Assembly: GCF_946886895.1 (NCBI RefSeq) | Contig: NZ_CAMPJO010000005.1 | Location: 248,001-312,000 of the forward strand | Direction: 5' to 3' | DNA: 64,000 bases | DNA from: an uncultured Marinobacter sp. | GTDB lineage: Bacteria > Pseudomonadota > Gammaproteobacteria > Pseudomonadales > Oleiphilaceae | Shown here: positions 6,612 through 59,845 of the stretch, piece by piece | Position numbering within the stretch: position 1 is the first letter of the stretch | How the letters are laid out: each line of letters begins with the position of its first letter | Translations under genes and position numbers: made by a program | The notes under the pieces: model-generated | The model's input: only the letters and a program-made list of their open reading frames with translations | The model's database searches: none | What the model was told of the DNA's origin: nothing

Positions 6612-7736
6612 TCAGGACTGGAAGCCCCAGATCAGGCTGAAATCCATGGAGGGCATGATTTCCGGTTCCTCGAGGGCGCGGATGTTGTATTCCAACAGGC
6701 TGGTGTCACGCTCGAAGGTCCCGTTGTAGCGGTTGCCCCGGGGGCCGAAAATGGATTTCACAAACGGTCCACGGGCCCGTACCGGACGGCGGGTCACCAC
6801 CCCGACTTCGTTGTTATCCAGGCGCACCAGAATGCCGGGGGGGTACTCCGTCAGCACCTGCAGCAGTGCCCGTGGAATGGCCGGGCGGAACTTGCCGTCG
6901 GCGAGGGTTGCAATCAGCCTGCGGGCGTCGGCGATGTTCATCCGGTTGCGGTAGGCCCGTTTGGTGATCATCGCCACGTAACGCTCTGCCAGCGCCAGGA
7001 TTTCCGCTTCCGGGCGGATCTCGGTACCGCTGAGGCCCTTGGGGTAGCCGCTGCCATCGGCCTGCTCGTGGTGCTGGGCGATGATCGTCAGCAGCAGTTT
7101 GTTGTCGATGCCAGCGGCTTTCAGAGCGGCGATGGCGCGTTGAGGGTGCTTGCGGATGACCGCGCGCTGGTCATCACTCAGAATCGTATTGGACGCGTTC
7201 AGCTTGTCCGCCACAGGCGCCAGAGCGAGGTTGGCGGTGAGTGCGGCGGCCGTCAGCACGCCAATGCGGTTGTCGTCCAGGCCGAACTGCCGGGCCATAA
7301 ACTGGCACAGAATGGCGTAAAAAATAATCTGCTCGTGAATGGTCGGCCCAACGGAATACAGATGGACAAGGGCCAGGCTGGCATCCGGAGACTCAAGGCA
7401 GGTGCGCTCCACCATCCGGGTCAGGCCCAGCAGCCGCTTCTGGGCTGAGGGGTCGGCTTCGGTGATGGCATTCAGGGTTGCCTCGAGGGTGTGCAGCAGA
7501 TCCGGATAATCGGCGAACGGGTTGCGATCCCGGGTGTCCTCAACCACCTCTTCCAGCGGCCGGTCAATTTTCCGGGGGCTGAACCGGCCCCGCTCGAATA
7601 GCTGCTCCAACTGCAAATTGGTCTGAATCACATAGCCCTGACGCAACAGAATATGGCCGTCGGCATCGTAGACGTTCCACGGTAACGGCCGGCCAATGGT
7701 GAGGGCGCCGGGGGCGATTCGGACAAGGTTCAGCAA
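6612..7736 (-). CDS. HD-GYP-like protein with altered HD pair
   Basis: A 374-residue protein with an HD-GYP-type core. The GYP signature HHEQADGSGYP (about 222-232) and the KHP motif (about 197-198) are intact, but the HD pair that binds the catalytic metals appears replaced (ALTANL, about 166-171, where ALLHDIGK is expected). The N-terminal 60 residues and C-terminal 80 residues are extra and unassigned. c-di-GMP phosphodiesterase activity is therefore doubtful and a binding or scaffold role is possible. The start is TTG at 7736 with AGGA eight bases upstream. It lies 93 bases after the GGDEF-EAL gene and is probably the last gene of the signalling operon. Confidence 0.8.
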   Translation of the reverse strand: MLNLVRIAPGALTIGRPLPWNVYDADGHILLRQGYVIQTNLQLEQLFERGRFSPRKIDRPLEEVVEDTRDRNPFADYPDLLHTLEATLNAITEADPSAQKRLLGLTRMVERTCLESPDASLALVHLYSVGPTIHEQIIFYAILCQFMARQFGLDDNRIGVLTAAALTANLALAPVADKLNASNTILSDDQRAVIRKHPQRAIAALKAAGIDNKLLLTIIAQHHEQADGSGYPKGLSGTEIRPEAEILALAERYVAMITKRAYRNRMNIADARRLIATLADGKFRPAIPRALLQVLTEYPPGILVRLDNNEVGVVTRRPVRARGPFVKSIFGPRGNRYNGTFERDTSLLEYNIRALEEPEIMPSMDFSLIWGFQS

Positions 7737-7829
7737 TTGACGTTTCCTGGATACTGCTTATATTGGCGACAGTTTAGCGCTGAATCCGCACGGGCTCCAG
7801 AGTCCGGTAAGGCAGGAGCACATGGCGGT

Positions 7830-10700
7830 TCAGCCCTGAATAGCGGCATGGTACTGAAAGGCCTGCTGAATGTGCTCTCGGATCTGCTTGTCGTCCCACG
7901 GTTTGGTGAGAAACTTGTAGATGGCACCCTCGTTAATGGCATCGGTGACGGATTTAAGATCCGTGTAGCCAGACAGCACGATTCGGACAGTGTCCGGATG
8001 AATCGCCTTGACCTGGCTGAAAAAGTCGGTACCGGACATTTCCGGCATCCGTTGATCCGAGACAATCACCTGAACATCGTTTTCCGCCAGCAAACTGAAG
8101 GCTTCCTGAATGCTGGTGGTTGACAGAATGCGATAACCGTCCCGGCGCAGAATCCGGGTGAGCGCCCTGAGGATATTTTCCTCGTCATCCAACAACAGCA
8201 GCGTAGGGCGGCGATCTTCTCCGTCACCACCCTGGTTCAGCGCACGCTCATTGGCGTTGGCACCTGCTCCCAGGTAGTCCAGCAGCGCTTCGAACGGCAT
8301 CGGGCGTGCAAAGGCAAACCCCTGCAACAGATCGCACTGATGTTTGCGCAGGAAGGCCGCATGCGCGTCGGTTTCCACGCCCTCGGCAACGACCTCCAGG
8401 CCCAGGTGATGAGCCATGGAGATCACCCCCTGGGTGATGGCGGCATCGCTGCGGTTTTTGATGACATCCTTGATAAACGAGCGGTCAATCTTGAGCTTGT
8501 TGGCCGGTAACAGTTTGATATAGCTCAGGCTGGAAAAGCCGGTGCCAAAGTCATCGATGGCAATGTGGACTCCGAGGGCGCGAAGTTCATGGAGGGTTTT
8601 AACAACTGCGTCGGTGTCGTAGAGCACCGCGGACTCAACGACTTCCAGCTCCAGGAATTGGGGAGGCAGCCCGGTAGCTTTCAGGGCAGCGGCTACGGAG
8701 TCAGTGAAGCCTTCTTTGCGCAGTTGAATAGGCGACACATTGACTGCGACCGAGCACTCGCGAAAGCCTCTGGCATGGAGTTGTACCAGGGCCTGGCAGG
8801 CTTGGTTAAGGACCTGCCGTCCCAGTTCGATGATCTGCCCGGTTTCCTCGGCCAGGGGAATAAAATCTCCGGGGGAAATCAGCCCCTGTTCCGGGTGCTC
8901 CCAGCGCACCAGTGCCTCCACGGATCGGGTTTTTCCCGAACGGGCGTCGACCACCGGCTGAAAGTAAGCCGTCAACTGCTGGTTCTCGAGCGCGTCCTGC
9001 AGGTCATTGCGCAATTTTACCTGGAAGTTGGCACGATCATTCAGATCCTTCGAGAACCATTGGTAGGTGTTCTTGCCCAGCTGTTTGGCGCGATACATGG
9101 CGAGATCCGCCTGTTGCAACAGCGCCATCGGCTCATCGGTTTTGCCATCGGTGATGGTAATGCCGACACTGGCGGTCAGACGAAGTGCCTGATTATTGAT
9201 GTGGTAGGGGGCGGATATGTCGCCGATGATTTTTTCCACAATCATGACCACATCTTTGGCCTGTGCCAGGTCCGGCAGAACCACAATAAACTCATCGCCG
9301 CTGATTCGGGCCACGGTATCACCCGACCGTACGATGGATTCGATTCGCTGGCCGACTTCGATCAGTAACTGGTCGCCGAGCCGGTGGCCCAATGAATCGT
9401 TGATCAGTTTGAACCCGTCGAGATCCACGAACAAGACGCCCAGCGTACGGCCATACCGGTTGGCAAACTGGCAGGCCTGGGTCAGGCGGTCCTCGAGCAA
9501 GGTCCGGTTGGGAAGACCGGTCAGCACGTCGTGGCTGACGTTGAAAGCCAGCTGACTTTCAACGGATTTGCGTTCGGAAATATCGTTCTGGATACCGATA
9601 AAGTGAGTAATCTCACCCTGCTCATCGCGAACCGGGGCCAGGTACAGATCGTTCCAGAACGGGGTGCCATCCTTCCGGTAATTGCGCAGGACCACGGTAA
9701 CCTCGGTGCCGTCCCGAAGTCCACGACGAATGTCGGCCAGTGCCTGCTCGTTGGTCAGGTCAAAGCTATCTCCCTGGAGAAACCGGCAATTCCGGCCAAT
9801 GCACTCCTCCGGGGTGTAGCCGGTAATTTTTGCAAAGGCCGGGTTTACGTATATGAGAGGTAGGTCTGGCGCTCGTGCATCGGCAATGGCAATGCCGTTA
9901 TGGGTGGACTCGATGCTGCGCTTGAGCAGGCGTAACTGCCGGTTATCGCGGATCTTCTCAGTGACGTTGCTGAGCATCAGGAGGCGGGACGGGCTGTAGT
10001 TGACGGTAATCTCCCGGCTGATCACCTCAATGAGCAGAGGTTCACCGTCCCGGGACTGATGCCGTTCCAGAATGGCCCCGTGGGAAAGTGGCACTCCCTC
10101 ACTGGAGACGGGGTCCGGATCGGAGGATTTCAGGTCCGCCAGCGCCATCCCGCTGATGTTGTCCGGATCATAGCGGTAGAGTGTTCTCGCGGTCTGGTTC
10201 ATGGCCTGTAGCTGGCCTGTCTCCGGGTCTGCGAGCACCATGGGGGCGGGGTTGTTCTCGAACAGTTGCCGGTAGTAGGCTTCGCTGTTGACCAGGTGCT
10301 CGGAGGCCATGGCACGGTCTATGGCGTACCGGATACTGCGGATTAATGTGTGGCCGTCAAGCTGGCCTTTGACCAGGTAATCGGCGGCGCCCAGCTCCAC
10401 GGCTTTGGCGTCCAGTTCTTCGTCACCCTGCCCGGTCAGGAGAATAAACGGCGCATTGATCCCGGAGGTTTGTGCCTGCCGGATCAGGTCGAGACCGGAA
10501 TCCGGGCCCAGGCGCAAATCCACCAGAGCCGCATCAAAGCTACCCCGGTGCAGGGCTTCAAGGCCTTTTTCAGCCGTTGCCTGCCACTCCACCCGGACAG
10601 CTACCGGGGAAGCCTCGTCCAGCAGGTCGCGAGTGATCAGATAGTCGTCTTCGTCATCCTCGATCAGAAGAATGCGCAGTTCAGGGTCGGTATTTGTCAT
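7830..10700 (-). CDS. REC-PAS-LOV-GGDEF-EAL-REC c-di-GMP signalling protein
   Basis: A soluble 956-residue multidomain protein. In order: receiver (Asp about 61), PAS (about 140-250), a second PAS with LOV signature GRNCRFLQG (adduct Cys about 305) plus the flavin-contact Asn residues in NYRKDGTPFWN and a Gln in GIQNDIS, GGDEF with SGDEF at about 467-471 and an RSGD inhibitory site five residues before it, EAL with an intact EAL motif (about 595-597), DDFGTG and AEGVET, and a C-terminal receiver (Asp about 882). It should make and/or degrade c-di-GMP under phosphorylation and blue-light control. The ATG at 10700 is preferred to a TTG at 10727; it overlaps the upstream regulator gene by 20 bases. 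Confidence 0.9.
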   Translation of the reverse strand: MTNTDPELRILLIEDDEDDYLITRDLLDEASPVAVRVEWQATAEKGLEALHRGSFDAALVDLRLGPDSGLDLIRQAQTSGINAPFILLTGQGDEELDAKAVELGAADYLVKGQLDGHTLIRSIRYAIDRAMASEHLVNSEAYYRQLFENNPAPMVLADPETGQLQAMNQTARTLYRYDPDNISGMALADLKSSDPDPVSSEGVPLSHGAILERHQSRDGEPLLIEVISREITVNYSPSRLLMLSNVTEKIRDNRQLRLLKRSIESTHNGIAIADARAPDLPLIYVNPAFAKITGYTPEECIGRNCRFLQGDSFDLTNEQALADIRRGLRDGTEVTVVLRNYRKDGTPFWNDLYLAPVRDEQGEITHFIGIQNDISERKSVESQLAFNVSHDVLTGLPNRTLLEDRLTQACQFANRYGRTLGVLFVDLDGFKLINDSLGHRLGDQLLIEVGQRIESIVRSGDTVARISGDEFIVVLPDLAQAKDVVMIVEKIIGDISAPYHINNQALRLTASVGITITDGKTDEPMALLQQADLAMYRAKQLGKNTYQWFSKDLNDRANFQVKLRNDLQDALENQQLTAYFQPVVDARSGKTRSVEALVRWEHPEQGLISPGDFIPLAEETGQIIELGRQVLNQACQALVQLHARGFRECSVAVNVSPIQLRKEGFTDSVAAALKATGLPPQFLELEVVESAVLYDTDAVVKTLHELRALGVHIAIDDFGTGFSSLSYIKLLPANKLKIDRSFIKDVIKNRSDAAITQGVISMAHHLGLEVVAEGVETDAHAAFLRKHQCDLLQGFAFARPMPFEALLDYLGAGANANERALNQGGDGEDRRPTLLLLDDEENILRALTRILRRDGYRILSTTSIQEAFSLLAENDVQVIVSDQRMPEMSGTDFFSQVKAIHPDTVRIVLSGYTDLKSVTDAINEGAIYKFLTKPWDDKQIREHIQQAFQYHAAIQG

Positions 10701-11157
10701 GGCGCTCGCGCTTGATTGATAGTTCAACCGTGTCCATCCAGTACTGTCTGAGCGTGTCGGTGATGCCCAGTAAATCTGAATAGCTGGCTGGTTTTACAAT
10801 GTAGGAGTTTGCCCCCAGGTCGTAACAGGCAGCAATATCATCCTCGTTCTGCGAGGTGCTCAGGATCACCGTGGGTATGGCCCGGAAATCCGGGTTGGAT
10901 TTGATTTCCCTCAGCGCCTGGCGACCATCTTTCAGGGGCATGTTCAGGTCCAGAAGGATCAGGTTCGGGCACTGATTGCCGGATGTGTCGGTTGGGTCGT
11001 AGGTCTTCCTCAGATACTCCATGAGCTCTGCGCCATCCTCGACAAAGTACAACCGACATCCGGTGACGCGCTCCTCGAAGGCTTCCTGAATCATTAGCCG
11101 GTCGTCAGGGTCGTCATCGGCGACCAGTACAGTGGGAGCGAACTGGGCTACTCTCAT
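10681..11157 (-). CDS. Rcp1-like single-domain response regulator
   Basis: A 158-residue stand-alone receiver. It has the acidic cluster ADDDPDDR, the phospho-acceptor in LLDLNMP (Asp about 70), the LSTS switch threonine/serine and VKP lysine. The long alpha4-beta5 region and the PLKDGRQAL segment match response regulators that pair with phytochrome-like or PAS histidine kinases (Rcp1 type). No output domain is present, so it probably passes phosphate or binds a partner. The start at 11157 has GAGGAG upstream. It lies between a multi-PAS kinase and the LOV-GGDEF-EAL protein, overlapping the latter, so it is likely the link between them. Confidence 0.88.
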   Translation of the reverse strand: MRVAQFAPTVLVADDDPDDRLMIQEAFEERVTGCRLYFVEDGAELMEYLRKTYDPTDTSGNQCPNLILLDLNMPLKDGRQALREIKSNPDFRAIPTVILSTSQNEDDIAACYDLGANSYIVKPASYSDLLGITDTLRQYWMDTVELSIKRERHDKYRP

Positions 11158-11177
11158 GGTGTTATATCTCCTCACTG

Positions 11178-14100
11178 TTACTTGTTAAACCGGATCGTGA
11201 AGCGGGCTCCGGCGTTCGGTACGCCCTCCGCGGATATGCGGGCACCGTGTCTGTCCAGAATCTTTTTGACAATGGCCAGGCCGATGCCGGTGCCGGCGTA
11301 ATCCTGCCGCTGGTGCAGTCGCTGGAAGGGGTGGAACAGCTTGTCGGCATGGCGAGGGTCAAAGCCAATTCCGTTATCACTGACCACCAGTGTCCAACCG
11401 TCTGCGGTGACTTCCTCAGCGTAAACCAAAACCGTTGGATTCTGCTCCGGTTTACGAAATTTAACCGCGTTGCTTACCAGGTTCTGCAGTACCTGGCGCA
11501 GTTGCATTGGATCGCCCTGGATGTCCGGCAACGGGCTGATGTCGATAGTCGCCTGTTCTCGGCCGAGCGTGGTTTCCAGGTCCTGCAGAACCTCTTTCAG
11601 TATCTGGTTCAGGTCACAGCGCACCCATGGCCGAGCCTTGGTGGTTACCCGGGAATAGGCAAGCAGATCCTGGATCAGGGCCTGCATGCGTCCGGCGGCG
11701 GACTGCATGCGGCGGAGGTAGTCTTTCTCCTGCTCCTCCAGGCGTTCAGACTTGCTGATGAGCCGGTCGGAGAACGCCTGAATCTTGCGCAGTGGCTCCT
11801 GCAGGTCATGGGAAGCAACAAAGGCAAACTCCTGCAACTCCCGGTTGCTGCGTTCCAGCTCTGACATGGTCGCTTCCAGCTTCCATTGGGCGGCCTTGCG
11901 TTCCCGGATGCTCCGGTAATACACCGAAAGCCCTTCCTCGGAGGGGTAGGCACTGATTTCCAGCCAGAGGTCCAGCGGTTCATAGCAGGCTTCAAAGGAG
12001 ACGGATTCACCAGTTTCCATGGCATGGCGATACTGGTGCCCGAGCTCGGTGCTCACGGCTTCCGGAAACATTTCCCACAGGCTGTGACCGAGCAGCTCGC
12101 CGCGTGTTTTCCCCATCAATTCTTCTGAGCGTTGATTGATGTTGATAAACCGCCAGTCTCTGTCCACGGTAAAAAAAGCGTCGGTAATGCTCTCGAAAAT
12201 AGTAGCCTGTCGTTCGGCAAACCGGCGAATTTGCTCCGACGCCTGCCTGGAGGGCGTAACGTCCTGGAACGCACCTTGCAGCTGTTTGATCGCGCCATTG
12301 TGGTCCCTCACCGCGTGGCCGATGACCCGGACCCAGCGCAGGCGCCCGGTCATGGTTTGGATCTGGACCTCTTCGTCGAAGGGGATGCCCTGGTGGATGC
12401 AGGTTTGTACGGCCTGGGCGATGATCTCGCGGGAGTCCGGTGTGTAAAAGTTCAGGGCCTCCTCCGGCGTTGGCACGTGATCCCGGGAGAGTTCATGGAT
12501 ATCGAATATGACGTCGGACCAGATGGCTTTCCCAGTCTCAATATCGAGTATCCAGGCTCCGATGCGTGCGGCTTTCTCTGCCATTTTCAAGAGTGCTTCG
12601 TTACTCTTCAGCTTTTCCTGGATTGCCCGGGCTTCGGTCGTGTCCCGGGCCGCTACATAAATCAGGTCATCGTCGCTCAGGGTTGCGTTGATCTGCAGCC
12701 AGTGCTCGTTGCCTTCGTGGTCCAGTGCGCGCACATTCAGATCATTGACATCGAAGCCCTCCGTTAGAAGGCGTACGGCGTCGATGACGTTTCGACGATC
12801 ATCTTGAACGATCAGGTCCATATACGAACGCCCCAGAAGCTGCTCCCGTGGGTAGCCAAGCGTGTCCACGAAGGTCTGGTTTACCTCGAAAAACAGGCTG
12901 TTCAAATCCACAATACAAAACATGTCGGGAGACAGAGAGAAAAACTGGTTGCGTTCCTGTGTCAACGCCTCTGCAACCAGCTCTCCGGTGATGTCACGGC
13001 CGACGCAGAACAACGCCCGGTCTTCCGGTGACCACTCCGCAGTCCAGGAGATAGTAACCGTGTGCCCGTCCTTGTGCCGCAGTCGGGTCCGGAACCCGGT
13101 GGTTTCACCGTTGCCGGCGGCTAGTGCCTGAACCGCTTCGGCGGTCGCAGCGCGATCCTCGGTTACTACAAGTTGCTCACTGTCAGTGTTCTGTAACTCC
13201 TCCGGCAGGTAGCCCAGAACGGCTTCTGAGGCAGGGCTGATGCTGAGAATGCGACCGTCGGCGGCAATGGAGCACAGAAGATCCCGGGAGAACTTCATGA
13301 TTCGCTCGTTAACGACGCGCAACCCACGTTCTTCATCCAGGTGGAAGTTCAGGGTATCGTTCAGCGCTTCCAGCGACCTTGAGCGCCGTTCCGATTCGCG
13401 CCAGAACAGATGGATCAGCATGACCAGAAAGCTCAGCCCCAGGCCGGTAAATAGAACCAGGGGCGGAAGATAAAGCTCGCCGGGCGGGAGCGAACCCGCT
13501 GGCATGTAAACCGTGACACGCCACTGGCTGGTATGGTGATTTTCCGTGGATCGGGCCGCTAGTGGCATTTCATTCTGTGAGCTGAGCTCAGGGGCGGAAT
13601 CAAACACCTTTATGTTACCGGTATAGATCTTGACCTCAAGGTTACCTACGTGGTCCCGGGATATCTGTTCATACATTGCCTGCAGATCGATGACCGCAAG
13701 TACTTGCCATGAAGCACCCGGTTGAGCGGTTACCGGGACGGCAATGGCTGCGTGTACCTGCTGGGTGTGGTCAGGTAGCGGGTGGCTGAGGTGGGGAGCG
13801 CCGGTGGTGAGGGTATGACCAAGCCATTCCGGTGTTTGTGGGTCGTTCAGGAACCGGTGCAGCCAGAAACGGTAATAATCGGTTCTCGATTCCACTCTTA
13901 CCGGCCTGTGGTCAGGGGCCAGAATGGCAATCAGGCGCAGATCGGGGAAGTCCCTGAGGTAGCTGCCAACCTCCTGCTGCCAGAAGGGCTGGTCTGGAAT
14001 GCCATTCATCAGCTCCCAGCGTTCCGCCAATCGGCGAATGAGTGCAAGCTTGATGTCGAGGGCGGACTCCCCGGCCGTCATCAGTCGCCCTGCCAGCGCC

Positions 14101-14786
14101 TCCGCCCGTTGTTGAATATCCGCGTTATGGTTGGTGCGCAGGATATGCCAGCTTACGGTGGTCACCAGGATGCCCAGCGTTCCCAGCACAATCAGCCCGA
14201 TGGAAAACGCCGGCCGCGCCCGGCGATATACCCGATGCAGTGACGGGAGTATGAGGCTGATCAACATAACCAGTGGGCTGACCACCACCGTCATTTCGGC
14301 GACGCGCCCCAGGCTAAAGGCTGTGAGATCAGAGTTCCACTGGGAGACCAGGGACAGCATCCCGATGGAAAACACCACGGGGGCGGCAATGAGCCCGACC
14401 AGCCAGCCCCATATAAAGTGAATTGCCGCCAGCAAACTGGCACCGATACAGACTACAGTCAGCACAAGTAACGGCGTTATCGTCGCTGAGTTTATGGCAG
14501 CATCTTCAGGAGCCAGGGTGACGGTGGTCAGAGCCATTGGGAGTATGACTACAAGCAGGCTGAGCCATGTGGCCGTTCTCGGAAGTCGGAATAACAGCGC
14601 AAGCAGCGCACTGCCAAGACTGATGGTCACCAGGCCGCCGCCCGGGCGCAGGGGCAGAATTCTGGTGAGTTCTGACGCATCGAGTGCAACATCGACCAGA
14701 ATGACGCTGCCCACGCACACCAGTGAAATCGCAAGCGCCAGTATCAGGCAGAACCAGAACAGTTCGTGACTTCGGTTATTAGCCAT
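11178..14786 (-). CDS. membrane multi-PAS sensor histidine kinase
   Basis: A 1202-residue kinase. The N-terminal 220 residues hold about six to seven hydrophobic helices; an external segment of about 220 residues follows (roughly 220-440), then another helix (about 440-462). Four PAS repeats (about 495-980) lead to the phospho-acceptor box SHDLQEPLRK (His about 993) and an ATPase domain with NLVSNAVKF, DNGIGFD and GTGIGLAIV. The DLQEPLRK-type box is that of phytochrome-like kinases, matching the Rcp1-like regulator just downstream. The ATG at 14786 overlaps the upstream ATPase gene by eight bases. The stimulus is unknown. Confidence 0.9.
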   Translation of the reverse strand: MANNRSHELFWFCLILALAISLVCVGSVILVDVALDASELTRILPLRPGGGLVTISLGSALLALLFRLPRTATWLSLLVVILPMALTTVTLAPEDAAINSATITPLLVLTVVCIGASLLAAIHFIWGWLVGLIAAPVVFSIGMLSLVSQWNSDLTAFSLGRVAEMTVVVSPLVMLISLILPSLHRVYRRARPAFSIGLIVLGTLGILVTTVSWHILRTNHNADIQQRAEALAGRLMTAGESALDIKLALIRRLAERWELMNGIPDQPFWQQEVGSYLRDFPDLRLIAILAPDHRPVRVESRTDYYRFWLHRFLNDPQTPEWLGHTLTTGAPHLSHPLPDHTQQVHAAIAVPVTAQPGASWQVLAVIDLQAMYEQISRDHVGNLEVKIYTGNIKVFDSAPELSSQNEMPLAARSTENHHTSQWRVTVYMPAGSLPPGELYLPPLVLFTGLGLSFLVMLIHLFWRESERRSRSLEALNDTLNFHLDEERGLRVVNERIMKFSRDLLCSIAADGRILSISPASEAVLGYLPEELQNTDSEQLVVTEDRAATAEAVQALAAGNGETTGFRTRLRHKDGHTVTISWTAEWSPEDRALFCVGRDITGELVAEALTQERNQFFSLSPDMFCIVDLNSLFFEVNQTFVDTLGYPREQLLGRSYMDLIVQDDRRNVIDAVRLLTEGFDVNDLNVRALDHEGNEHWLQINATLSDDDLIYVAARDTTEARAIQEKLKSNEALLKMAEKAARIGAWILDIETGKAIWSDVIFDIHELSRDHVPTPEEALNFYTPDSREIIAQAVQTCIHQGIPFDEEVQIQTMTGRLRWVRVIGHAVRDHNGAIKQLQGAFQDVTPSRQASEQIRRFAERQATIFESITDAFFTVDRDWRFININQRSEELMGKTRGELLGHSLWEMFPEAVSTELGHQYRHAMETGESVSFEACYEPLDLWLEISAYPSEEGLSVYYRSIRERKAAQWKLEATMSELERSNRELQEFAFVASHDLQEPLRKIQAFSDRLISKSERLEEQEKDYLRRMQSAAGRMQALIQDLLAYSRVTTKARPWVRCDLNQILKEVLQDLETTLGREQATIDISPLPDIQGDPMQLRQVLQNLVSNAVKFRKPEQNPTVLVYAEEVTADGWTLVVSDNGIGFDPRHADKLFHPFQRLHQRQDYAGTGIGLAIVKKILDRHGARISAEGVPNAGARFTIRFNK

Positions 14787-17025
14787 CCAACACCTGGGGG
14801 CCGAGCAGGCGAAGGATCTCATCCGCGGTCGTCAGCCCGTCTTTCAGCTTTTCCAGGGCATCATCAATCAGCACTTTCATGCCCTGTTCACGGGCGATGG
14901 CTTCGATTTGCATGGCGCTGGCCCCTTCGGTAATGGCGATGCGCAAATCGGCGTTCATGGTCAGGACTTCGTGAATGGCGACCCGCCCCTTGTAGCCCTT
15001 GTGACATTTTTCACAGCCCCTGCCCCGATAGAAGGTGAGATTCGGGTTCAGGAACTGGGGGCCAAGCTGGCTGAGGGTATCGGTTGGTGCGGGAACCTCT
15101 TCCCGGCAATGTTTGCAGATTCTTCTTACCAGCCGCTGGGCAATGATCGCTTCCAGGGCGGACGCCAGAACAAAGGGTTTGAGGTCAAGGTCCAGTAACC
15201 GGGCGACTGTGGTGGCGGCGGAGCTGGTGTGCAGGGTGGAGTACACCAGGTGCCCGGTCATGGCGGCATGAAACGCGACATCGGCGGTTTCTTCGTCGCG
15301 GATTTCACCCAGCAGGATAACGTCCGGGTCCTGCCGGAGAATGGCCCGCAGCACGCTGGCAAAGTTGAGCCCGATGCGTTCCTTGACCGGGACCTGTCCC
15401 GCCATATCGACATGGAACTCGACCGGGTCTTCAATGGTGACGTAGTTCCGCTCCGGTGAGGCGTTGTGTTGCAGCAGGGCATACAGGGTGGTGGTCTTGC
15501 CGCTGCCGGTGGGGCCGGTGGCCAGGATAATACCCTGGGGCTTGGCCACCACGTGCATAAGACGCTTCAGGTTGTGTTCTGAAAGCCCCATGTCTTCCAG
15601 GGACTGGGCCGAGGACTGCCGTTCCAGCACCCGCATCACCACCTTCTCGCCGTTGATGGTGGGCAGGGTGGAAATCCGCAGGTCGACGATCTTCATCGGC
15701 GTCTTGACGGTAATACGACCATCCTGGGGTTTGCGCCGCTCGGTAATATCCAGCTCGGCCATAACCTTGATGCGGGAGACGACGGACATCAACAGGTTGG
15801 TGGGGATGTGAATTTTGTCCTGCAGTACGCCATCAATGCGGTAGCGCACCACCAGTGATTTGGTGCGGGGATGCACGTGAATGTCGCTGGCGCCCAGCCG
15901 CAGGGCCTCCAGAATGATGGCATTCACCAGGCGGATGGCCGGTGGTTCTTCCGAACTGCCCAGTAGCTGTTCCAGGGATTCCTGGTCTGACTCGTCATCC
16001 AGTACGATCTCGATGCCCTCATAGGGATCATCGGTACCGACACGGGTGGTGATGTCATCCAGGTCGTTGGTTTCACCAAAAATTTCCGCCAGCTTGGCCT
16101 GCATCTGCGAGGTCTCACACAGCAGCGGATGTATGGTGTAGCCGGTCATGAACCCGAGTTCGTCAATCAGGTTGATGTCCATGGGGTCCACCATGGCCAG
16201 GCGCAGGCGCTGGCCGCTGGTGCGCAACGGCAGCACCAGCTGGCGGGTGCAGATCTTCTGCGGCACCAGTGACAGCAGGCTTGGATCCGGCTGAAACTCA
16301 CGCAGATCAATCTCTTCGAAGAGCATCTCATCCCGCAGCATTTCGAAGACCTTGCGGAAATCGATCCACTCATGCTTAAGGAGTTGTCGGATCACCGGTG
16401 TCTTCTGGCTTTGCATTTCCCGGTGCAACTGCTGAATTTGTTGCGGATTCAGCCAGCCTTTTTTATGCAGCAGGATGGCGAGCTGGCTGCGGTTGGTGGC
16501 GGTCAGCTTGCTGATGGTTTCCAGATCCCGGCTTTGCTTTTTGGTTTGCTGCTCCAGGGCGCGGGTGCGCTGGATAAGTTCGTACTGTTCCAGTGCCAGG
16601 GCGATGGTCAGCCGGATATCGTCGTCGTTCCAGGGCTTGAGGATAAACCGGTAAACCGCACCATCCTTGATCGAGCCCATTACCGCATCGGTGTTGGCGT
16701 GACCGGTCAGCATGATGCGAATGGTATGGGGCCAGCGTTCGCGAACCTCCCGGAGGAGATCGCTTCCATTCATGCCAGGCATCATGAAATCGGTCATGAT
16801 CAGTTCGGCGGGCTGTTTCTCCAGAATTTTCAGGGCTTCCTCACCACTGCGGGCAAACAGCAGCTCGTAGTTCTCGCGCTGAAAGACGCGGCGCAGGGAG
16901 GCCAGGATGTTGGGTTCATCATCCACCAACAACAGTTTGTATGGGGCTTTCTTGACGTTCGGGGCCGTGTCGGGTGTGGTCTCTGCCTCCTGCCCGTGAA
17001 AGAGTGATGCGTAGCGTTTTGCCAT
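14779..17025 (-). CDS. receiver domain fused to GspE/PilB-type secretion ATPase
   Basis: A 748-residue fusion. Residues 28-145 form a receiver (Asp about 79, LTG, LKPWND). A linker of about 40 residues leads to an N-terminal GspE/MshE-type domain (about 180-320), then a full type II secretion/type IV pilus ATPase: Walker A GPTGSGKT (504-511), Asp box IEDPVEF, Walker B DVILLGEIRDEET, His box, and a CxxC...CxxC zinc site (Cys 637, 640, 671, 674). All catalytic motifs look intact, so it should be an active hexameric ATPase gated by phosphorylation. No pilin or secretin gene is nearby. It sits in an operon of kinases and an MglA-like GTPase. Confidence 0.9.
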   Translation of the reverse strand: MAKRYASLFHGQEAETTPDTAPNVKKAPYKLLLVDDEPNILASLRRVFQRENYELLFARSGEEALKILEKQPAELIMTDFMMPGMNGSDLLREVRERWPHTIRIMLTGHANTDAVMGSIKDGAVYRFILKPWNDDDIRLTIALALEQYELIQRTRALEQQTKKQSRDLETISKLTATNRSQLAILLHKKGWLNPQQIQQLHREMQSQKTPVIRQLLKHEWIDFRKVFEMLRDEMLFEEIDLREFQPDPSLLSLVPQKICTRQLVLPLRTSGQRLRLAMVDPMDINLIDELGFMTGYTIHPLLCETSQMQAKLAEIFGETNDLDDITTRVGTDDPYEGIEIVLDDESDQESLEQLLGSSEEPPAIRLVNAIILEALRLGASDIHVHPRTKSLVVRYRIDGVLQDKIHIPTNLLMSVVSRIKVMAELDITERRKPQDGRITVKTPMKIVDLRISTLPTINGEKVVMRVLERQSSAQSLEDMGLSEHNLKRLMHVVAKPQGIILATGPTGSGKTTTLYALLQHNASPERNYVTIEDPVEFHVDMAGQVPVKERIGLNFASVLRAILRQDPDVILLGEIRDEETADVAFHAAMTGHLVYSTLHTSSAATTVARLLDLDLKPFVLASALEAIIAQRLVRRICKHCREEVPAPTDTLSQLGPQFLNPNLTFYRGRGCEKCHKGYKGRVAIHEVLTMNADLRIAITEGASAMQIEAIAREQGMKVLIDDALEKLKDGLTTADEILRLLGPQVLDG

Positions 17026-17034
17026 GATGGGTCC

Positions 17035-18186
17035 TCAGCGGGCCTTGATCGGCAGGGTGAGTGTGACGCGGGTGCCGGCGCCCAGTTGGCTGTCGATGGT
17101 CAGGTTGCCGCCATGTGCACGAACCGTGTCCCGGGCCACGGTCAGGCCAAGGCCGGTGCCCGATCCGACCGGACGTGTGGTGTAGAAAGCATCGAACACC
17201 TGAGCCCGGTGGTCATCAGGTATGCCACAGCCATTGTCCTGGATGATGACCCGCACGCTGTCCGTGCCCGTTTGTGTTTGCATCAGGATGCGCCCTTTGC
17301 CGCTCCCGAAGTCCTTGTCGTTCAGAGCCAGGGCGGCGTTATCAAGCAGATTGAAGAACGTCTGGGATAACCGGGACGGGTGTCCCGATACCAGTGGCAG
17401 CTCATTCAGGCGCTCAATGATGTCCAATTGATGACCATGTTCTGTTTGTACCAGATGAGCCGCACTGCGTAACAGGTCGTTCACGTTACAAACGGTGTAG
17501 TCTGCCTGGTCGATACTGGAGAAGGTCTTCAGGTCGGCAACAATGCTGGCAATCCGCCGGGTGCCGTCGATGGACTCGGTCAGCAGGTCGTTGAAATCCC
17601 TGAGCAGCTCCTGATTGTCTGGCGTGGATGGGAGGCTGTCTTTCAGATCATCCACATAATCCCTGGCCACCCGCAGGTTACTGCTGATAAAGCCGATCGG
17701 ATTATTGATTTCATGGGCCACACCGGCCGCCAGTTGCCCCACCGACCGGAGTTGCGCGCTTTCGTAGAGTTCCTGCTGGGTTTTCTGAATCACGCTGACC
17801 TGCTCGTCCACTTTTTGTTGAAGCTGGTTGGACAAATCCCGGTAGCGGGCTTCGGAGGCTTTTAGTGCCTCATTCTGGCGCTGAAGCTCGGCGTAGCTGG
17901 CTTCCGTGGTGTCATGGTGCAGATTGGCCGCCAGCCGGTACTTGGCTACAAACATCATCAGGAAGGAAACCAGGTCTGCCGCTGCACGACGCTCCCCGGC
18001 GGAGTCGCCACCGGATAGCCAGCCGACGGTTTCCAGGTTGAACTCCACAGGCACCGCATCGCTGGTTTTTTGTTCGCCGATGACCACGGGGGCCTGGCAC
18101 AGACCACTGAGCACCCGGTTCAACCGTTCCAACTGGTCGGCGCTGAGCAGGTCCTGCAGGGTCGGGTCGTCTTCAAAGCTTCGCAT
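17035..18186 (-). CDS. soluble sensor histidine kinase
   Basis: A 383-residue cytoplasmic kinase without membrane segments. An N-terminal region of about 90 residues is unassigned, a coiled coil follows (about 95-145), then the phospho-acceptor box QLAAGVAHEINNPIGF (His about 158) and an ATPase domain with NLLDNAALAL, DNGCGIP and GTGLGL. It belongs to the same kinase group as the gene at 20762-21613. The start at 18186 is supported by GAGG six bases before it; an ATG at 18198 is possible. It overlaps the GTPase gene by 14 bases. Likely partners are the receivers encoded on either side. Confidence 0.88.
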   Translation of the reverse strand: MRSFEDDPTLQDLLSADQLERLNRVLSGLCQAPVVIGEQKTSDAVPVEFNLETVGWLSGGDSAGERRAAADLVSFLMMFVAKYRLAANLHHDTTEASYAELQRQNEALKASEARYRDLSNQLQQKVDEQVSVIQKTQQELYESAQLRSVGQLAAGVAHEINNPIGFISSNLRVARDYVDDLKDSLPSTPDNQELLRDFNDLLTESIDGTRRIASIVADLKTFSSIDQADYTVCNVNDLLRSAAHLVQTEHGHQLDIIERLNELPLVSGHPSRLSQTFFNLLDNAALALNDKDFGSGKGRILMQTQTGTDSVRVIIQDNGCGIPDDHRAQVFDAFYTTRPVGSGTGLGLTVARDTVRAHGGNLTIDSQLGAGTRVTLTLPIKAR

Positions 18187-18847
18187 GGTCGGCCTCATGG
18201 CTGGCGCTCAGGCCATCGATAAACGCTCTCCGGGGGATGCCGTGGCGCTGTTCCAGGGCAAACTCGGCGCTGATGGCTGTGTATAAGCGGTCGAGCAGGG
18301 TTCGGAAGCTTTCTATCACGCCTTTGCCCTGGAGTGCCGAGGCCATCATCAGCGGCGCCCAGGGGGTGGCTGCCCAGCGCTGTTGAAGCTCCTGCTCATC
18401 CACGACCCCGGGAAGGTCCCGTTTATTGAACTGGACCACCATGGGCAGGGTGTCGATATCCAGGCCGACTTTTTCAAGGTTTTCCTCAAGATTTCCAAAT
18501 GCCGTGGCGTTGTTGTCCTGTTGCGAGGGCTGGGAGTCGGCGATAAAAACGACGCCATCGGCTCTGGAGAGCACGGCTTTACGAGTACTGTCGTGCTGGA
18601 CCTGGCCAGGCACAGTGTACAGTTTCAGACGCAGATCCAGCCCTGAGTTACCGCGCAGGCCGATGGGCAGCATGTCGAAGAACAAGGTGCGGTCGTCCCG
18701 GGTTTCAAGCACCATCAACTCGCCCTTGCGCTCCGGATTCAGCAGGGAATGAAGCTGCATGAGATTGGTGGTTTTGCCGCTGAGGGCGGGGCCGTAAAAC
18801 ACCACTTTCAGCGTGAGCTTGTTGTCGTCCGCTTGGTAATCAGGCAT
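18173..18847 (-). CDS. MglA-like small GTPase
   Basis: A 224-residue Ras-like GTPase. It shows the P-loop GPALSGKTT (about 19-27) typical of MglA, a switch II region TVPGQ in place of DTAGQ (about 78-82), and the guanine-specificity motif NKRD (about 141-144). MglA proteins mark a cell pole and control type IV pili or gliding in Myxococcus and position pili or flagella in other bacteria. No Roadblock/MglB-type GAP gene is present in the window. It lies between two response-regulator genes and a kinase gene it overlaps, in one operon with a PilB-type ATPase, so control of a pilus or secretion machine is a reasonable inference. Confidence 0.88.
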   Translation of the reverse strand: MPDYQADDNKLTLKVVFYGPALSGKTTNLMQLHSLLNPERKGELMVLETRDDRTLFFDMLPIGLRGNSGLDLRLKLYTVPGQVQHDSTRKAVLSRADGVVFIADSQPSQQDNNATAFGNLEENLEKVGLDIDTLPMVVQFNKRDLPGVVDEQELQQRWAATPWAPLMMASALQGKGVIESFRTLLDRLYTAISAEFALEQRHGIPRRAFIDGLSASHEADHAKL

Positions 18848-18861
18848 TGGCGTTCGCTTTT

Positions 18862-19389
18862 TTAATCGTGGTCGCTGATGAGAACCGAGCCGTCGGCATC
18901 CCTCTGGACCCGGGTGATGCCGGGGTTTTCGGATTCCAGCCTCAGCAACTCTTGCTCCCGGGCTTTGAGCATCGCTTTCTGGGTGTCAACTTCGTTCCGC
19001 AGCCGCCGGTTCTCTACCTTGAGCTGGTACAGGTCAATAGCCGACCTGATGGCGGCGATCACTTCGTAGTCGTCCCAGGGTTTGGACAGGAAACGGTAAA
19101 CTTCGGCCTGGTTGATGGCCTTGATCATGGAGTTGCGGTCACCGTGGGCGCTGAGAACGAGCCGCATGGCATCAGGCTGGCGCTGCTTGGCAAACTGCAG
19201 GTAGGTTACGCCGTCGGCCGTGGGCATCTGATAATCCGAGACGATGACGGCGTAGTCATGCTCTAGCAGGCCGCCGAGTGCGGCTTCCACATTGTCGTAG
19301 GTATGGACTTCCCATCCTTCGGGTTTCAGCAGTCGCCTCAGGGCACTCAGGATGTTGGCTTCGTCATCCACCAGTTGGATCTTGATCAT
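18862..19389 (-). CDS. response regulator with C-terminal coiled coil
   Basis: A 175-residue protein: a receiver (about 1-120) with phospho-acceptor Asp about 52 in VIVSDYQMP, LSAHG, and the YRFLSKPWDDYEV segment, then a coiled coil of about 40 residues (VENRRLRNEVDTQKAMLKAR) and a short acidic tail. There is no DNA-binding or enzymatic output. It overlaps the upstream gene by four bases (ATGA) and precedes the GTPase gene by 14 bases, so it is a candidate to regulate or localise the GTPase. Confidence 0.87.
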   Translation of the reverse strand: MIKIQLVDDEANILSALRRLLKPEGWEVHTYDNVEAALGGLLEHDYAVIVSDYQMPTADGVTYLQFAKQRQPDAMRLVLSAHGDRNSMIKAINQAEVYRFLSKPWDDYEVIAAIRSAIDLYQLKVENRRLRNEVDTQKAMLKAREQELLRLESENPGITRVQRDADGSVLISDHD

Positions 19390-20759
19390 GAGGGAGTCTC
19401 CGTTTCTTCTTCCGGGCGATGTACATACAGAGTGTAGCGGTGCCCGTCCGGTTCGCCTTTTTCAAAGGCGGCGAGCTTGTCGATCAGCAGGCCCGTGAGC
19501 ACCTTGCCTTCATTTAATAGCAGCATGCCTGAGGCGGCATACAGGTTGCGGGCCAGCACCATGCCCGGCTTCAGGCGCAGGGTGTCGAGTACCAGAACGT
19601 CGGGGTCTTCGTGGTCAACGTCTGGTGCGACTTCGATCACCATTTCCAGAAACTGGTCGGCGATGTCCGGATCGTACAGCCGGTCCCGGTAACGCTTGAT
19701 CAGTTTAATGGCGTTGTCTCTTGGCACCCTCCGTTCGAGAATCAGGCCAAACTGAAGCTCGATAAAATCCACTGCCAGTCGGAGGATACGGGCGCCAAGG
19801 GGGATGTCCTTGCCTTCCAGCCGATCAGGAATGCCGTAGCCGTTCCACTTTTCCTGGTGATGCCGGATAATTTTCGCGGTGTCTCTCAGGGGCTCAAGGG
19901 CCATCAGCAACTGTTCACCTGCTACCGGATACTTCATATATTCCAGCTTCTGGTCTTTGCTGAGCATATCCGACGGGGCGGTGAACAGTTCGTCCGGCCA
20001 GCTGAGCTTGCCCAGGTTGTAAAGAGCCGCCGCCATGGCCAGATTCCGGGCCAGTTCCTCATCCAGCGTGTGGTAGTCGGCAAAGGCCTTGACCAGAGCG
20101 ATGACTTTGGCGTTCGGCTGGCGGTTGGCCGGCAGGCGCTTGTCGATCAGGGAGGAAAAAACTTCGGTCGTCGTGACATAACTCTGGCGCAATTCCCGGT
20201 AGGCCAGATCCAGCATATCGGCGGTTTCCCGGAGTTCTTCTGTGCGGTCACGGACTTTTTGCTCCAGGGTTTTGTTCAGATCCTGAAGTTCACGGTTCTG
20301 TTTGCGCGTCAGTTTTTCAAGGGCCAGTCGACGACGTTCTGATTGCTGAAAGGCCAGGGCCTGCCGGAGGATCAGGCGCAGCTCATCATCGTCCCAGGGT
20401 TTGCTGATGTAGCGATAGATCTGCCCGTCGTTAATGGCCTTGACGGTCGAATCGATATCGGCATAACCGGTGAGCAGAATACGGATACACTCGGGATCCT
20501 TTTTCTTGATGGTCGCCAGCAGGGTGGGCCCATCCATACCTGGCATTCGGGCATCGGAAATGACCAGGTCAAAGCTCTGTTTTTTCATCAGCCCGATGGC
20601 CTGGTCTCCGGACGTGGCGGTGGTGAGCTCGTAAGGCTCTTTGCGCAGCACTCTTTGCAAACTGCGCAGGATGTTTTCCTCGTCGTCGACCAACAGCAGT
20701 TGTGCATTGGGTGGCAGAGGCTCAGCCGCGGTCTCGGGTTGGGAAACCTGATCGCTCAT
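19386..20759 (-). CDS. receiver plus degenerate HD-GYP protein
   Basis: A 457-residue protein with an RpfG-like layout: receiver (Asp about 69 in VISDARMP; YISKPWDDDELR), coiled coil (about 135-185), an HD-GYP-like domain (about 195-380) and a C-terminal tail of about 75 residues. The HD pair reads YN (ALYNLGKL, about 245-252), the KxHP histidine reads Tyr (MKYPVAG), and the GYP box is HHQEKWNGYGIP with the Asp changed to Asn. Loss of several metal ligands suggests no phosphodiesterase activity. It may bind partners as a phospho-controlled scaffold. It begins two bases after the kinase gene at 20762. Confidence 0.87.
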   Translation of the reverse strand: MSDQVSQPETAAEPLPPNAQLLLVDDEENILRSLQRVLRKEPYELTTATSGDQAIGLMKKQSFDLVISDARMPGMDGPTLLATIKKKDPECIRILLTGYADIDSTVKAINDGQIYRYISKPWDDDELRLILRQALAFQQSERRRLALEKLTRKQNRELQDLNKTLEQKVRDRTEELRETADMLDLAYRELRQSYVTTTEVFSSLIDKRLPANRQPNAKVIALVKAFADYHTLDEELARNLAMAAALYNLGKLSWPDELFTAPSDMLSKDQKLEYMKYPVAGEQLLMALEPLRDTAKIIRHHQEKWNGYGIPDRLEGKDIPLGARILRLAVDFIELQFGLILERRVPRDNAIKLIKRYRDRLYDPDIADQFLEMVIEVAPDVDHEDPDVLVLDTLRLKPGMVLARNLYAASGMLLLNEGKVLTGLLIDKLAAFEKGEPDGHRYTLYVHRPEEETETPS

Positions 20760-20761
20760 GG

Positions 20762-21613
20762 TTACTCAGTGCCGTGCGTGGAAGGCTGTTTGACCGGGAG
20801 TGTGATCCGGAAGCAGGTGCCTTCGCCCGGCGTACTGTCCACGTCAATTCGGCCGTTGTGCTTTTCAATGATGTTGAAGGATAACGACAGGCCCAGCCCG
20901 GTGCCTTTGCCGATCGGTTTGGTGGTATAAAAAGGCTCAAAGATGCGATTGATGTTTTCCCGGGAAATCCCCTTGCCCGTGTCTTCGACCTCAATCACCA
21001 CGTTGTCGGTTTCCTGCCGGGTGCGAATGATGATTTTCCCGAAGTCATCAATGGCGTGAGCGGCATTGACCAGCAGGTTCATGACCACCTGGTTGATCTG
21101 TGAAATGATGCACTCAACCTCGGGGAGATCCCCGAAATCCCGGACGACATCGGCTTTGTACTTGAGCTCGTTATTGACAACGTTGAGGGTGGTTTCAATG
21201 CCCCGGTGAAGATCCGCGGGTTTGAACTCCTCTTCCTCAATGTGTGAGAAATCTTTCATGGCGGAAATGATGGTTTTAACCCGCTCGATGCCTTCCCGGG
21301 ATTCGGCCAGCAAGTCCTTCAGATCGTTCCGGACAAAGTCATAATCAATGTTCTGCTTGATGGCCCTGAGGCTGTCCAGGGACTCCGCCGAATCGACGGC
21401 GTCGGTCAGCCGGAACAGGTCGGTCAGGTAGTTTTCGAGACTTTGCAGGTTCGAGTAGACATAGCCCACCGGGTTATTGATCTCGTGGGCAACCCCTGCC
21501 GCCAACTGACCGATAGCCGCCAGTTTTTCCGATTGCAGGAGTTGCCTGTTGGCCTGCTCAAGCCGGTCATTCAGCAGTTCCTTATCGGACTTTGGGTTCG
21601 TGCTCTGGGACAT
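20762..21613 (-). CDS. soluble sensor histidine kinase, first gene of the signalling operon
   Basis: A 283-residue cytoplasmic kinase: a short N-terminal coil, the phospho-acceptor box QLAAGVAHEINNPVGY (His about 43), a four-helix segment, and an ATPase domain with NLLVNAAHAI, DTGKGIS and GTGLGLSLS. No sensor domain is visible, so input may come through a partner. The ATG at 21613 is chosen because AAGGAA precedes it; in-frame codons upstream to 21718 overlap the promoter. It is followed after two bases by the receiver/HD-GYP gene. It opens a run of minus-strand signalling genes reaching 6612. Confidence 0.88.
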   Translation of the reverse strand: MSQSTNPKSDKELLNDRLEQANRQLLQSEKLAAIGQLAAGVAHEINNPVGYVYSNLQSLENYLTDLFRLTDAVDSAESLDSLRAIKQNIDYDFVRNDLKDLLAESREGIERVKTIISAMKDFSHIEEEEFKPADLHRGIETTLNVVNNELKYKADVVRDFGDLPEVECIISQINQVVMNLLVNAAHAIDDFGKIIIRTRQETDNVVIEVEDTGKGISRENINRIFEPFYTTKPIGKGTGLGLSLSFNIIEKHNGRIDVDSTPGEGTCFRITLPVKQPSTHGTE

Positions 21614-21717
21614 GGCGCTTTCCTTGCTCGGCAGGTGTGCACTGGTCAACGGCTTGATCCGGGTGTTCTTTAAAGCGTCTTTGTATCTGTTTGTTTTCAG
21701 AATTGTGAACTGCATCA

Positions 21718-21744
21718 ATTATAGCGGCTCTGATAGCCTGTCAA
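21718..21744 (-). promoter_or_regulatory. promoter of the signalling operon
   Basis: On the minus strand a perfect TTGACA (21739-21744) is followed by 15 bases and a perfect TATAAT (21718-21723). The leader to the ATG at 21613 would be about 100 bases. The short spacer is suboptimal, which could mean activator control or a weaker promoter than the boxes suggest. Confidence 0.6.
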
Positions 21745-21886
21745 CGTTAATTTTCGTATCTGAAATAAGTGGTTAAGTTATGCTTGTGTTTAGGAATCGA
21801 AGTCTCGGCTTGCTACTCTAATGGCATGCTGAGATTCTCTGTTCGCTGACTGGATGACTTGTCAGTATATGACTGAGGTTTCGGCG

Positions 21887-22585
21887 ATGCCTGATGCCAA
21901 TATCCAATACCGCTTTGTCTTCAGCGATGGATTCCGCTGGGAGTATCTGATTAACACGGACGGGGAGGATCCGGGCCCGGGATATTCACGGCAGGCACCT
22001 GAGTGGACGCGCCTTGAGTATCACCAATGCCGCCATTGCCCGCTTGCCAACACCGAAGCCACTCACTGCCCATACGCCCTGGCATTGATCGAGCCGGCAC
22101 GGGCCACTAACCACCGGCTTTCCCACGAGCTGGTTCAGTTGTCTGTGGTCACCCGGTCCCGGGAAATTCGTGCCGAGACCACGCTGCAGCGGGCCATGGG
22201 ATCGCTGATAGGGCTGGTTGGCCCGTTTTCCGGTTGTCCGGTAACCGCGATTCTTCGACCCATGGCGCGCTATCACCTGCCCCTGAGTACGGCCGATGAA
22301 ACGCTTGTCCGGGCCTTTGGTATGTTTTTGGTGGGTCAGTACCTGCGGGAGCAGCACGGTAAGTCAGCAGATTGGAACATGACAGGCCTCCGGATCATTT
22401 ACCGGGATCTTCGACTGTTGAATCAGGGTATGAGTGAACGGTTGCGGGCCGCCCAGAAAGAAGATGCCGGTGTAAACAGTATTGTCCTTCTCGACATTCT
22501 GGCCGCCGATGTCGGTTATGCGCTCGAAACCTATGAGGGGGATCTCGACGAGGCGTTTCGGGAATTTTTTTGTGAACCCCGGTAA
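21887..22585 (+). CDS. unrecognised protein with CxxC...C motif
   Basis: A 232-residue soluble protein that I do not recognise. It starts with a beta-rich segment (IQYRFVFSDGFRWEYLI) and has a Cys cluster CRHCPL...HCPYAL (Cys about 48, 51, 61) that could hold a metal. The rest is mostly helical. There is no signal peptide or membrane segment. The start at 21887 has GAGG eight bases upstream; in-frame ATGs at 21854 and 21869 lack one. It is transcribed divergently from the signalling operon, sharing a 273-base gap, and precedes a GGDEF gene, so a role in signalling is possible but unsupported. Confidence 0.75.
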   Translation: MPDANIQYRFVFSDGFRWEYLINTDGEDPGPGYSRQAPEWTRLEYHQCRHCPLANTEATHCPYALALIEPARATNHRLSHELVQLSVVTRSREIRAETTLQRAMGSLIGLVGPFSGCPVTAILRPMARYHLPLSTADETLVRAFGMFLVGQYLREQHGKSADWNMTGLRIIYRDLRLLNQGMSERLRAAQKEDAGVNSIVLLDILAADVGYALETYEGDLDEAFREFFCEPR

Positions 22586-22691
22586 AATGGTATGGGCTGC
22601 CCTATAGTTTTGTGAAAAAACGTAGTCAGTCAGCGACCCCTTTAACTCCTTGCGCTATTCTGAGGCACTACAGAATGCTTTGGCCAACGGC

Positions 22692-25085: not shown

Positions 25086-25254
25086 AGGGGGTTCCGGTTA
25101 CTGACTTGAAACTGGCCGGTCAACCGGCGCCTGGCAGGCATGGTACCTGAATACCGGTCGGCCCGGGATAGGGGATGGCCCCGGTGACAGACGCTGAAAC
25201 CTGTCTGAAAAACCGGTACAGTACCGGCCTCAATTCCGACGGACGGCAGATATC

Positions 25255-27803: not shown

Positions 27804-27978
27804 AAGTTTTCCTTTGCTGACTACAAGAATTCCCGGTCGACTATTAATAAAAGACTGTGACCAAAGAAAATACAACGAGCAGAAATGCCTAACTTCACTC
27901 TAGACATTTGCCCGGTGGTTTCAAGCAAACCTTTGTTTTCGCCTTTGCTACCGGCCTTTTGCGTCAGGTCCCCGAATA

Positions 27979-59591: not shown

Positions 59592-59766
59592 TCCATGCAC
59601 GGGCCGGGCCGTGGGAGGTGCGGGATTATTGTTCTTGGAGCCATGTTACCAGCCCGGGGGTCATCCGGGAATTTTCAATTGTTAAAAAATGAATATTAAT
59701 TTCTATTTTCTTTCAATGCGTTGTGACCTTTTTTGTCATATTGCCAAAAAAACAGGATCAGGTGTC

Positions 59767-59791
59767 GGAACTTTTACCATTAGACATACGT
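59767..59791 (+). promoter_or_regulatory. possible ECF-type promoter of the lipase gene
   Basis: GGAACTT (59767-59773), the classic ECF -35, is followed at 15 bases by CGT (59789-59791), a plausible ECF -10. The predicted start lies about 50 bases before the lipoprotein ATG. This would put the divergent lipase gene under the neighbouring sigma factor. No second copy of the motif was seen before the sigma gene itself. Confidence 0.35.
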
Positions 59792-59845
59792 GGGAGGCGA
59801 TTGAGGCGCGGGAAGCGCAGAACGACAAAAACAGAGGTGCAGAAT

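Follow-up and report, generated by a model that had tools for sequence, protein, structure and literature searches.

In Myxococcus, the GTP-bound form of the small GTPase MglA acts via SgmX to bring the extension ATPase PilB of type IV pili to the pole, and FrzS and SopA assist in this pathway (PMC7519303, PMC11580455; these and all other PMC identifiers are cited from excerpts). Group 1 MglA proteins carry an arginine next to the G2 threonine, TVPGQ in G3 and [NT]KxD in G4, while the coupling to MglB, recorded for 390 of 449 MglA proteins, is usual but not strictly defining (Wuichet and Sogaard-Andersen, PMC4316618). Here, we describe a block of ten tightly packed minus-strand genes (6612-21718, by open reading frame (ORF) list and Pfam/NCBIfam annotation) from an uncultured Marinobacter sp., located in a window of 64,000 nucleotides (the whole stretch of DNA analysed; contig NZ_CAMPJO010000005.1, positions 248,001 to 312,000), in which the gene of an MglA-like GTPase adjoins that of a PilB/GspE-type ATPase fused to a receiver (REC-MshEN-T2SSE, hereafter REC-ATPase). 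We lean towards reading the conserved core of this block as a set of signalling genes that are inherited together and whose products control a second extension motor dedicated to type IV pili.

The block resembles the Myxococcus xanthus MglA/MglB/RomR-SgmX-FrzS pathway, which likewise combines receiver proteins with a Group 1 MglA and an extension ATPase of the PilB type (PMC7519303, PMC11580455), and its GTPase shares the TVPGQ and G2 arginine signature of M. xanthus MglA. In contrast to Myxococcus, the GTPase gene has as neighbours two kinase genes and the gene of a receiver-fused ATPase, which is not PilB itself, and no MglB gene was recognised next to it. Its neighbourhood is highly ordered, whereas the gene neighbourhoods of Group 1 MglA proteins vary widely (PMC4316618). 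In the Pseudomonas FimX-PilB system, a pilus ATPase is linked to a GGDEF-EAL protein that bears a receiver at its N-terminus (PMC5595344); the comparable protein of the present block differs in its LOV domain, intact EAL motif and second receiver and is restricted to some of the carriers, and a separate receiver is fused to the ATPase. The actinobacterial conservons CvnA-D also join a kinase and an MglA-family GTPase in a conserved gene set, but they use a Group 2 MglA and an MglB-type protein and have no ATPase motor (PMC4316618). No description of the present gene set was found in the titles and abstract starts of the open-licence literature searched, which agrees with the original prediction, made from the sequence alone, that knew of no system with the full set. 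The gene block seems to be undescribed, and we regard it as a variant form of the control of type IV pili by MglA, one that includes a new subfamily of ATPases.

A scan with the GTPase alignment, using one genome per species, gave 139 confirmed places, and the best 80 loci of these 139 were all examined. HK2 followed by the REC-ATPase lies downstream of the GTPase in 79 of the 80 loci, including four in which the ATPase is cut by the contig end; by tblastn, the ATPase is covered to at least 60% in 75 loci, and four more hold only its start. The sole locus that keeps the GTPase and has lost the REC-ATPase is L038 (Litchfieldella). HK2 is seen in pieces at L058 and L060, and at L049 an additional REC gene stands beside HK2 between GTPase and ATPase. 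Upstream, position rules place the REC-YN/HD-GYP gene in 57/80 and REC1 in 54/80 loci, and all five partners are present in 39/80. Loci with as little as 55% GTPase identity still show the core order, so the gene block is more than a chance arrangement. The original prediction had taken all ten genes as one unit; what is conserved is a core of about six, namely HK1, REC-YN/HD-GYP, REC1, the MglA-like GTPase, HK2 and REC-ATPase, and at minimum the trio GTPase-HK2-REC-ATPase. The multi-PAS kinase, REC2 and the LOV-GGDEF-EAL protein occur mainly in Marinobacter/Pseudomonas-type loci, with weaker matches in a few others (L047, L065, L071), and the terminal HD-GYP gene was found downstream in two of four Marinobacter stretches checked. 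Distance-matrix correlations (L001-L021, L053 and the window excluded; no housekeeping control), which are not used as proof, range from 0.86 to 0.94 among GTPase, HK2, REC-ATPase, REC-YN-GYP and REC1 and from 0.49 to 0.75 for pairs with HK1.

The two central genes also occur together when counted across whole genomes, a test for which the original prediction had asked. Three genome samples were used, each containing its centre, a known carrier; non-carrier genomes are possibly shared between samples, and the carriers are all different. Among 214 genomes of the order of G001, eight carry the GTPase and seven the REC-ATPase, with both present and adjacent in seven (GTPase only 1, ATPase only 0). 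The 229 genomes of the class of G002 contain four GTPases (58-60% identity) and three REC-ATPases, counted with receiver and MshEN covered, both being adjacent in three genomes. For the order of G003 (n=230) the numbers are 17 GTPases, 20 REC-ATPases and 17 genomes with both, again adjacent, leaving three with the ATPase only. Summed, 27 genomes have both genes, two only the GTPase and three only the ATPase (24, 2 and 3 without the centres), corresponding to a Fisher p of about 1e-38 without the three centres and with kinship ignored. In one genome, G076, no REC-ATPase was found and the GTPase frame (L115, 7481-7969) is open but shortened inside, with 27 residues missing after NKRD; it lies on the strand opposite to neighbouring REC, kinase and HD-GYP genes and is possibly a decaying copy.

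All 81 aligned GTPase sequences carry the Group 1 MglA signatures, that is R53-T54, T78-Q82 (TVPGQ) and N141-D144 (NKRD), together with an invariant G1 motif, and all four matches in the PDB at E 1e-5 are MglA. No Robl_LC7 (MglB family) protein was recognised among the window genes scanned, beside the GTPase or otherwise. In 40 carrier genomes, which were our choice from the 80 loci and include L038 without REC-ATPase, a Robl_LC7 match was found in eight and none was detectable in 32.

The REC-ATPase belongs to the T2SSE superfamily (PF00437, 430.1 bits, over the gathering cut-off), and the PDB entries that match it best are PilB, with the alignment covering residues 182-741. It scores 417 bits against the TfpB model NF053534, under the cut-off of 850. 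The Walker A motif is retained, and both its lysine K510 and the receiver aspartate D79 are invariant in 74/74 aligned sequences. In a tree of the ATPases of six carrier genomes, the REC-ATPase forms its own clade beside those of PilB, GspE and TfpB, and a separate PilB-clade ATPase is present in all six genomes. Its domain order MshEN-T2SSE is that of the MshE and PilB ATPases whose MshEN domain binds cyclic di-GMP (c-di-GMP). The signature of c-di-GMP-binding MshEN domains is RLG. Unlike these ATPases, the REC-ATPase has QLA (65) or QIA (6) at this position in 71 of the 74 sequences, and therefore direct c-di-GMP binding via the RLG motif is not expected. Of four PilB-clade ATPases of the carrier genomes checked for the RLG pattern, three had none and the fourth had one late match.

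The three genomes with the ATPase only (L121-L123), in whose stretches no GTPase match was found, link the family to a pilus gene. In all three, the gene immediately upstream of the REC-ATPase encodes a TPR protein and is preceded by a type IV pilin gene (PF00114 and PF07963), about 1.6-3.7 kb from the ATPase; in L121 an IS200-type transposase gene is located between pilin gene and ATPase. These three ATPases fall inside the REC-ATPase clade (100/100) and retain the family sequence NRSQLA. The pilin adjacency connects the REC-ATPase family with type IV pili. L122 and L123 additionally encode, upstream of the pilin, another T2SSE ATPase, which has a GAF domain at its N-terminus, and a GAF-HD-domain protein is found in L121 and L122.

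The phosphorelay proteins of the core have intact phosphorylation sites: H78 of HK1 (65/65 sequences), H162 of HK2 (78/78) and D52 of REC1 (55/55) are invariant, as is the receiver aspartate of REC-YN-GYP in the aligned sequences. The N-terminal domain of HK2, predicted as a model folded alone with a mean predicted local distance difference test (pLDDT) score of 84.5, weakly resembles GAF domains; the structural matches listed for it are weak, many of them GAF and none Roadblock (MglB), a fold that the domain may nevertheless have. REC-YN-GYP scores 548.6 bits against NF053512 (cut-off 400). A REC-YN-GYP protein also exists in Pseudomonas aeruginosa. The catalytic dyad reads YN in 31 and HD in 19 of 58 sequences, and the window protein has YN in place of the HD of an active HD-GYP domain; because of this distribution, phosphodiesterase activity has probably been lost in the Marinobacter/Pseudomonas branch. 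LOV photoreceptors are marked by GxNCRFLQ, which the window protein carries as GRNCRFLQ; of the 38 downstream homologues longer than 450 aa, 29 have the motif. Light and c-di-GMP had been proposed as inputs of the system; the LOV arm is indeed present but limited to certain lineages, and the c-di-GMP signature of the ATPase is replaced family-wide.

In the mechanism we propose, HK1, HK2 and, in the Marinobacter lineage, the multi-PAS kinase would phosphorylate the receivers, and the phosphorylated receiver on the ATPase would gate the hexamer or its docking at the pilus base. The GTP form of the MglA-like GTPase may license where or when the motor engages, as Myxococcus MglA does for PilB via SgmX. 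Since no MglB was found in most carriers checked, REC1 and HK2, whose genes flank that of the GTPase, would be the likeliest regulators of its nucleotide cycle. The GYP protein could add c-di-GMP and light input, together with the LOV-GGDEF-EAL protein in Marinobacter/Pseudomonas-type loci. The block would thereby be a shorter version of the Myxococcus pathway with its own motor. A more specific form of this proposal, which we put forward tentatively, is a second extension ATPase with its own receiver that needs two keys, phosphorylation by the operon kinases and loading by a Ras-like GTPase that works without MglB. HK2 and REC1 would then take the places of MglB and RomR in regulating the GTPase cycle.

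The original prediction allowed for a pilus or a secretion apparatus as the target, and of the two the type IV pilus is favoured. That the REC-ATPase drives a type II secretion system (T2SS) under GTPase and phosphorelay control is very improbable. The ATPase does match the GspE model TIGR02533 at 539.4 bits, gspL is over its cut-off in 29 of the 40 carriers, and the best NCBIfam match of HK1 is a family named T2SS_HK (NF038348; 333.9 bits, under its cut-off of 450, with eight relatives at 330-395). However, the ATPase score is under the GspE cut-off of 630.25, and a secretion role is disfavoured because GspL over the cut-off is absent in 11/40 carriers, including the complete genome behind L061 (although a divergent GspL could escape), because the four T2SS carriers among the six surveyed genomes have their own GspE-clade ATPase, and because members of the family adjoin a pilin gene. 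It is also unlikely, if less so, that the REC-ATPase is a regulatory subunit, which through mixed hexamers or competition with the ordinary PilB would let phosphorylation and the GTPase tune extension. The coexistence with a PilB-clade ATPase in every genome surveyed and the lack of a pilin-like ORF at the GTPase loci would fit such a subunit, but the family has retained its catalytic motifs as expected for a working motor, and in three genomes the ATPase is encoded near a pilin gene.

Finally, a single kinase network could control GTPase and ATPase as unrelated outputs that have no more than an operon in common, as might be suggested by L038 with a GTPase and no ATPase and by the three genomes with an ATPase and no GTPase. 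We consider this quite improbable, as both genes are present and adjacent in 27 of the 32 carriers of either, and the GTPase of G076, where no REC-ATPase was found, is missing residues. Several observations weigh against a co-inherited module for a second pilus motor. The REC-ATPase scores 562.4 bits against the PilB model TIGR02538, under the curated cut-off of 675.65. No pilin-like ORF (at least 80 aa, by pattern) was found in any of the 80 GTPase loci, and therefore a motor there would act on pili encoded elsewhere. The type IVa pilus gene pilO is present in 39/40 carriers, which is weak evidence because PilO is common anyway (179/214 genomes of one order). The three pilin-linked ATPases count as one event because they are close kin, and they are without the GTPase; conversely, the GTPase can have another use, since L038 keeps it without the ATPase. 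In Myxococcus, two-hybrid assays gave no direct contact between MglA and PilB (PMC7519303).

Within the window, the inventory of the original prediction stands largely as given. The ten genes overlap or are separated by short gaps (2, -4, 14, -26, 9, -44, 2, -47 and 93 nt between consecutive genes, by listed ORF starts), and they encode two soluble kinases, neither with a sensor domain known to Pfam, one multi-PAS kinase, six Pfam Response_reg receivers distributed over five proteins, the MglA-like GTPase, the receiver-ATPase fusion, a light-type c-di-GMP enzyme in which the LOV motif is followed by SGDEF and an intact EAL, and two degenerate HD-GYP proteins, the second of which has lost the HD motif (by eye). 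HK1 has an in-frame ATG at 21613 (283 aa), the position at which the original prediction ended the block, its longest ORF starting from a TTG at 21718 (318 aa). The original prediction also placed the genes behind one promoter; a sigma-70 scan returned no minus-strand site upstream of HK1, and six sites in the region as a whole against 5.1 expected, by which a promoter is neither indicated nor excluded. Among named homologues, those nearest to the GTPase and the REC-ATPase come mostly from Marinobacter.

Coordinates of the block genes and the divergent neighbour in the window
Feature	Position	Strand	Evidence
HK1, histidine kinase without recognised sensor domain	20762..21718	-	HisKA + HATPase_c
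REC-YN-GYP, receiver + HD-GYP-type domain, YN for HD	19386..20759	-	Response_reg + HD_5; NF053512
REC1, stand-alone receiver, ~60-residue tail	18862..19389	-	Response_reg 5-115 of 175
MglA-like small GTPase, Group 1 by sequence criteria	18173..18847	-	domain + PDB matches, G-motifs
HK2, kinase with N-terminal alpha-beta-beta-beta-alpha domain, no Pfam family match there	17035..18198	-	
REC-MshEN-T2SSE, receiver fused to PilB/GspE-type ATPase	14779..17025	-	Pfam, NCBIfam, PDB matches
Multi-PAS histidine kinase (accessory)	11178..14822	-	several PAS stretches + HisKA + HATPase_c
REC2, stand-alone receiver (accessory)	10681..11175	-	Response_reg
REC-PAS-LOV-GGDEF-EAL-REC (accessory), in-frame ATG at 10700	7830..10727	-	GRNCRFLQ, SGDEF, EAL
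Degenerate HD-GYP protein without receiver (accessory)	6612..7736	-	HD_5 74.3 bits
DUF6901, divergent neighbour of HK1	21854..22585	+	PF21842 195.4 bits

Homologues of the DUF6901 gene lie upstream on the opposite strand in 14/80 loci, whose titles name Marinobacter, Pseudomonas, Stutzerimonas or Moraxellaceae; L076 has one at another position. The window protein has several cysteines and may provide the module with an input not recognised so far. A protein of ~280 aa with an HDOD-like start (by eye) is encoded in 18 non-Marinobacter loci, among them L045, L049 and L056; in eight examples checked, its gene is located upstream of that of the GTPase at a distance of about 3-9 kb. L051, L052, L057 and L069 have two or three HK1-type kinases in tandem (430-982 aa), which suggests variable inputs. 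A 1127-aa frame in L074 was considered as a natural kinase-ATPase fusion and rejected: the ATPase frame extends upstream over the kinase gene, and none of the kinase queries gave a match to it at E 1e-8. L069, titled Polarisedimenticolaceae, was likewise rejected as a carrier outside the Pseudomonadota, since the phylum sample around its genome includes the Marinobacter genomes G013 and G358. Further along the window, neighbouring c-di-GMP and chemotaxis genes occupy 22650-29553 (GGDEF, 22650-23741; GGDEF-EAL, 26139-27875; methyl-accepting chemotaxis protein, 27979-29553), and a 1033-aa ORF with a GTG start at 59723-62824 has no Pfam match at E 1e-6, its status as a gene being uncertain.

There is as yet no settled account of how GTPases of the MglA type influence the pilus motor, the two-hybrid assays in Myxococcus having given no direct contact (PMC7519303). 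In the two sampled orders and the class sample, all beta/gamma-proteobacteria, a receiver-bearing PilB-type motor and two kinases are inherited together with, and adjacent to, a Group 1 MglA, and many of the carriers are named cultured strains. With six proteins, the step from GTPase to motor and the phospho-control of a pilus ATPase would become accessible to biochemistry, and MglA control would be extended beyond the bacteria in which it has been studied.
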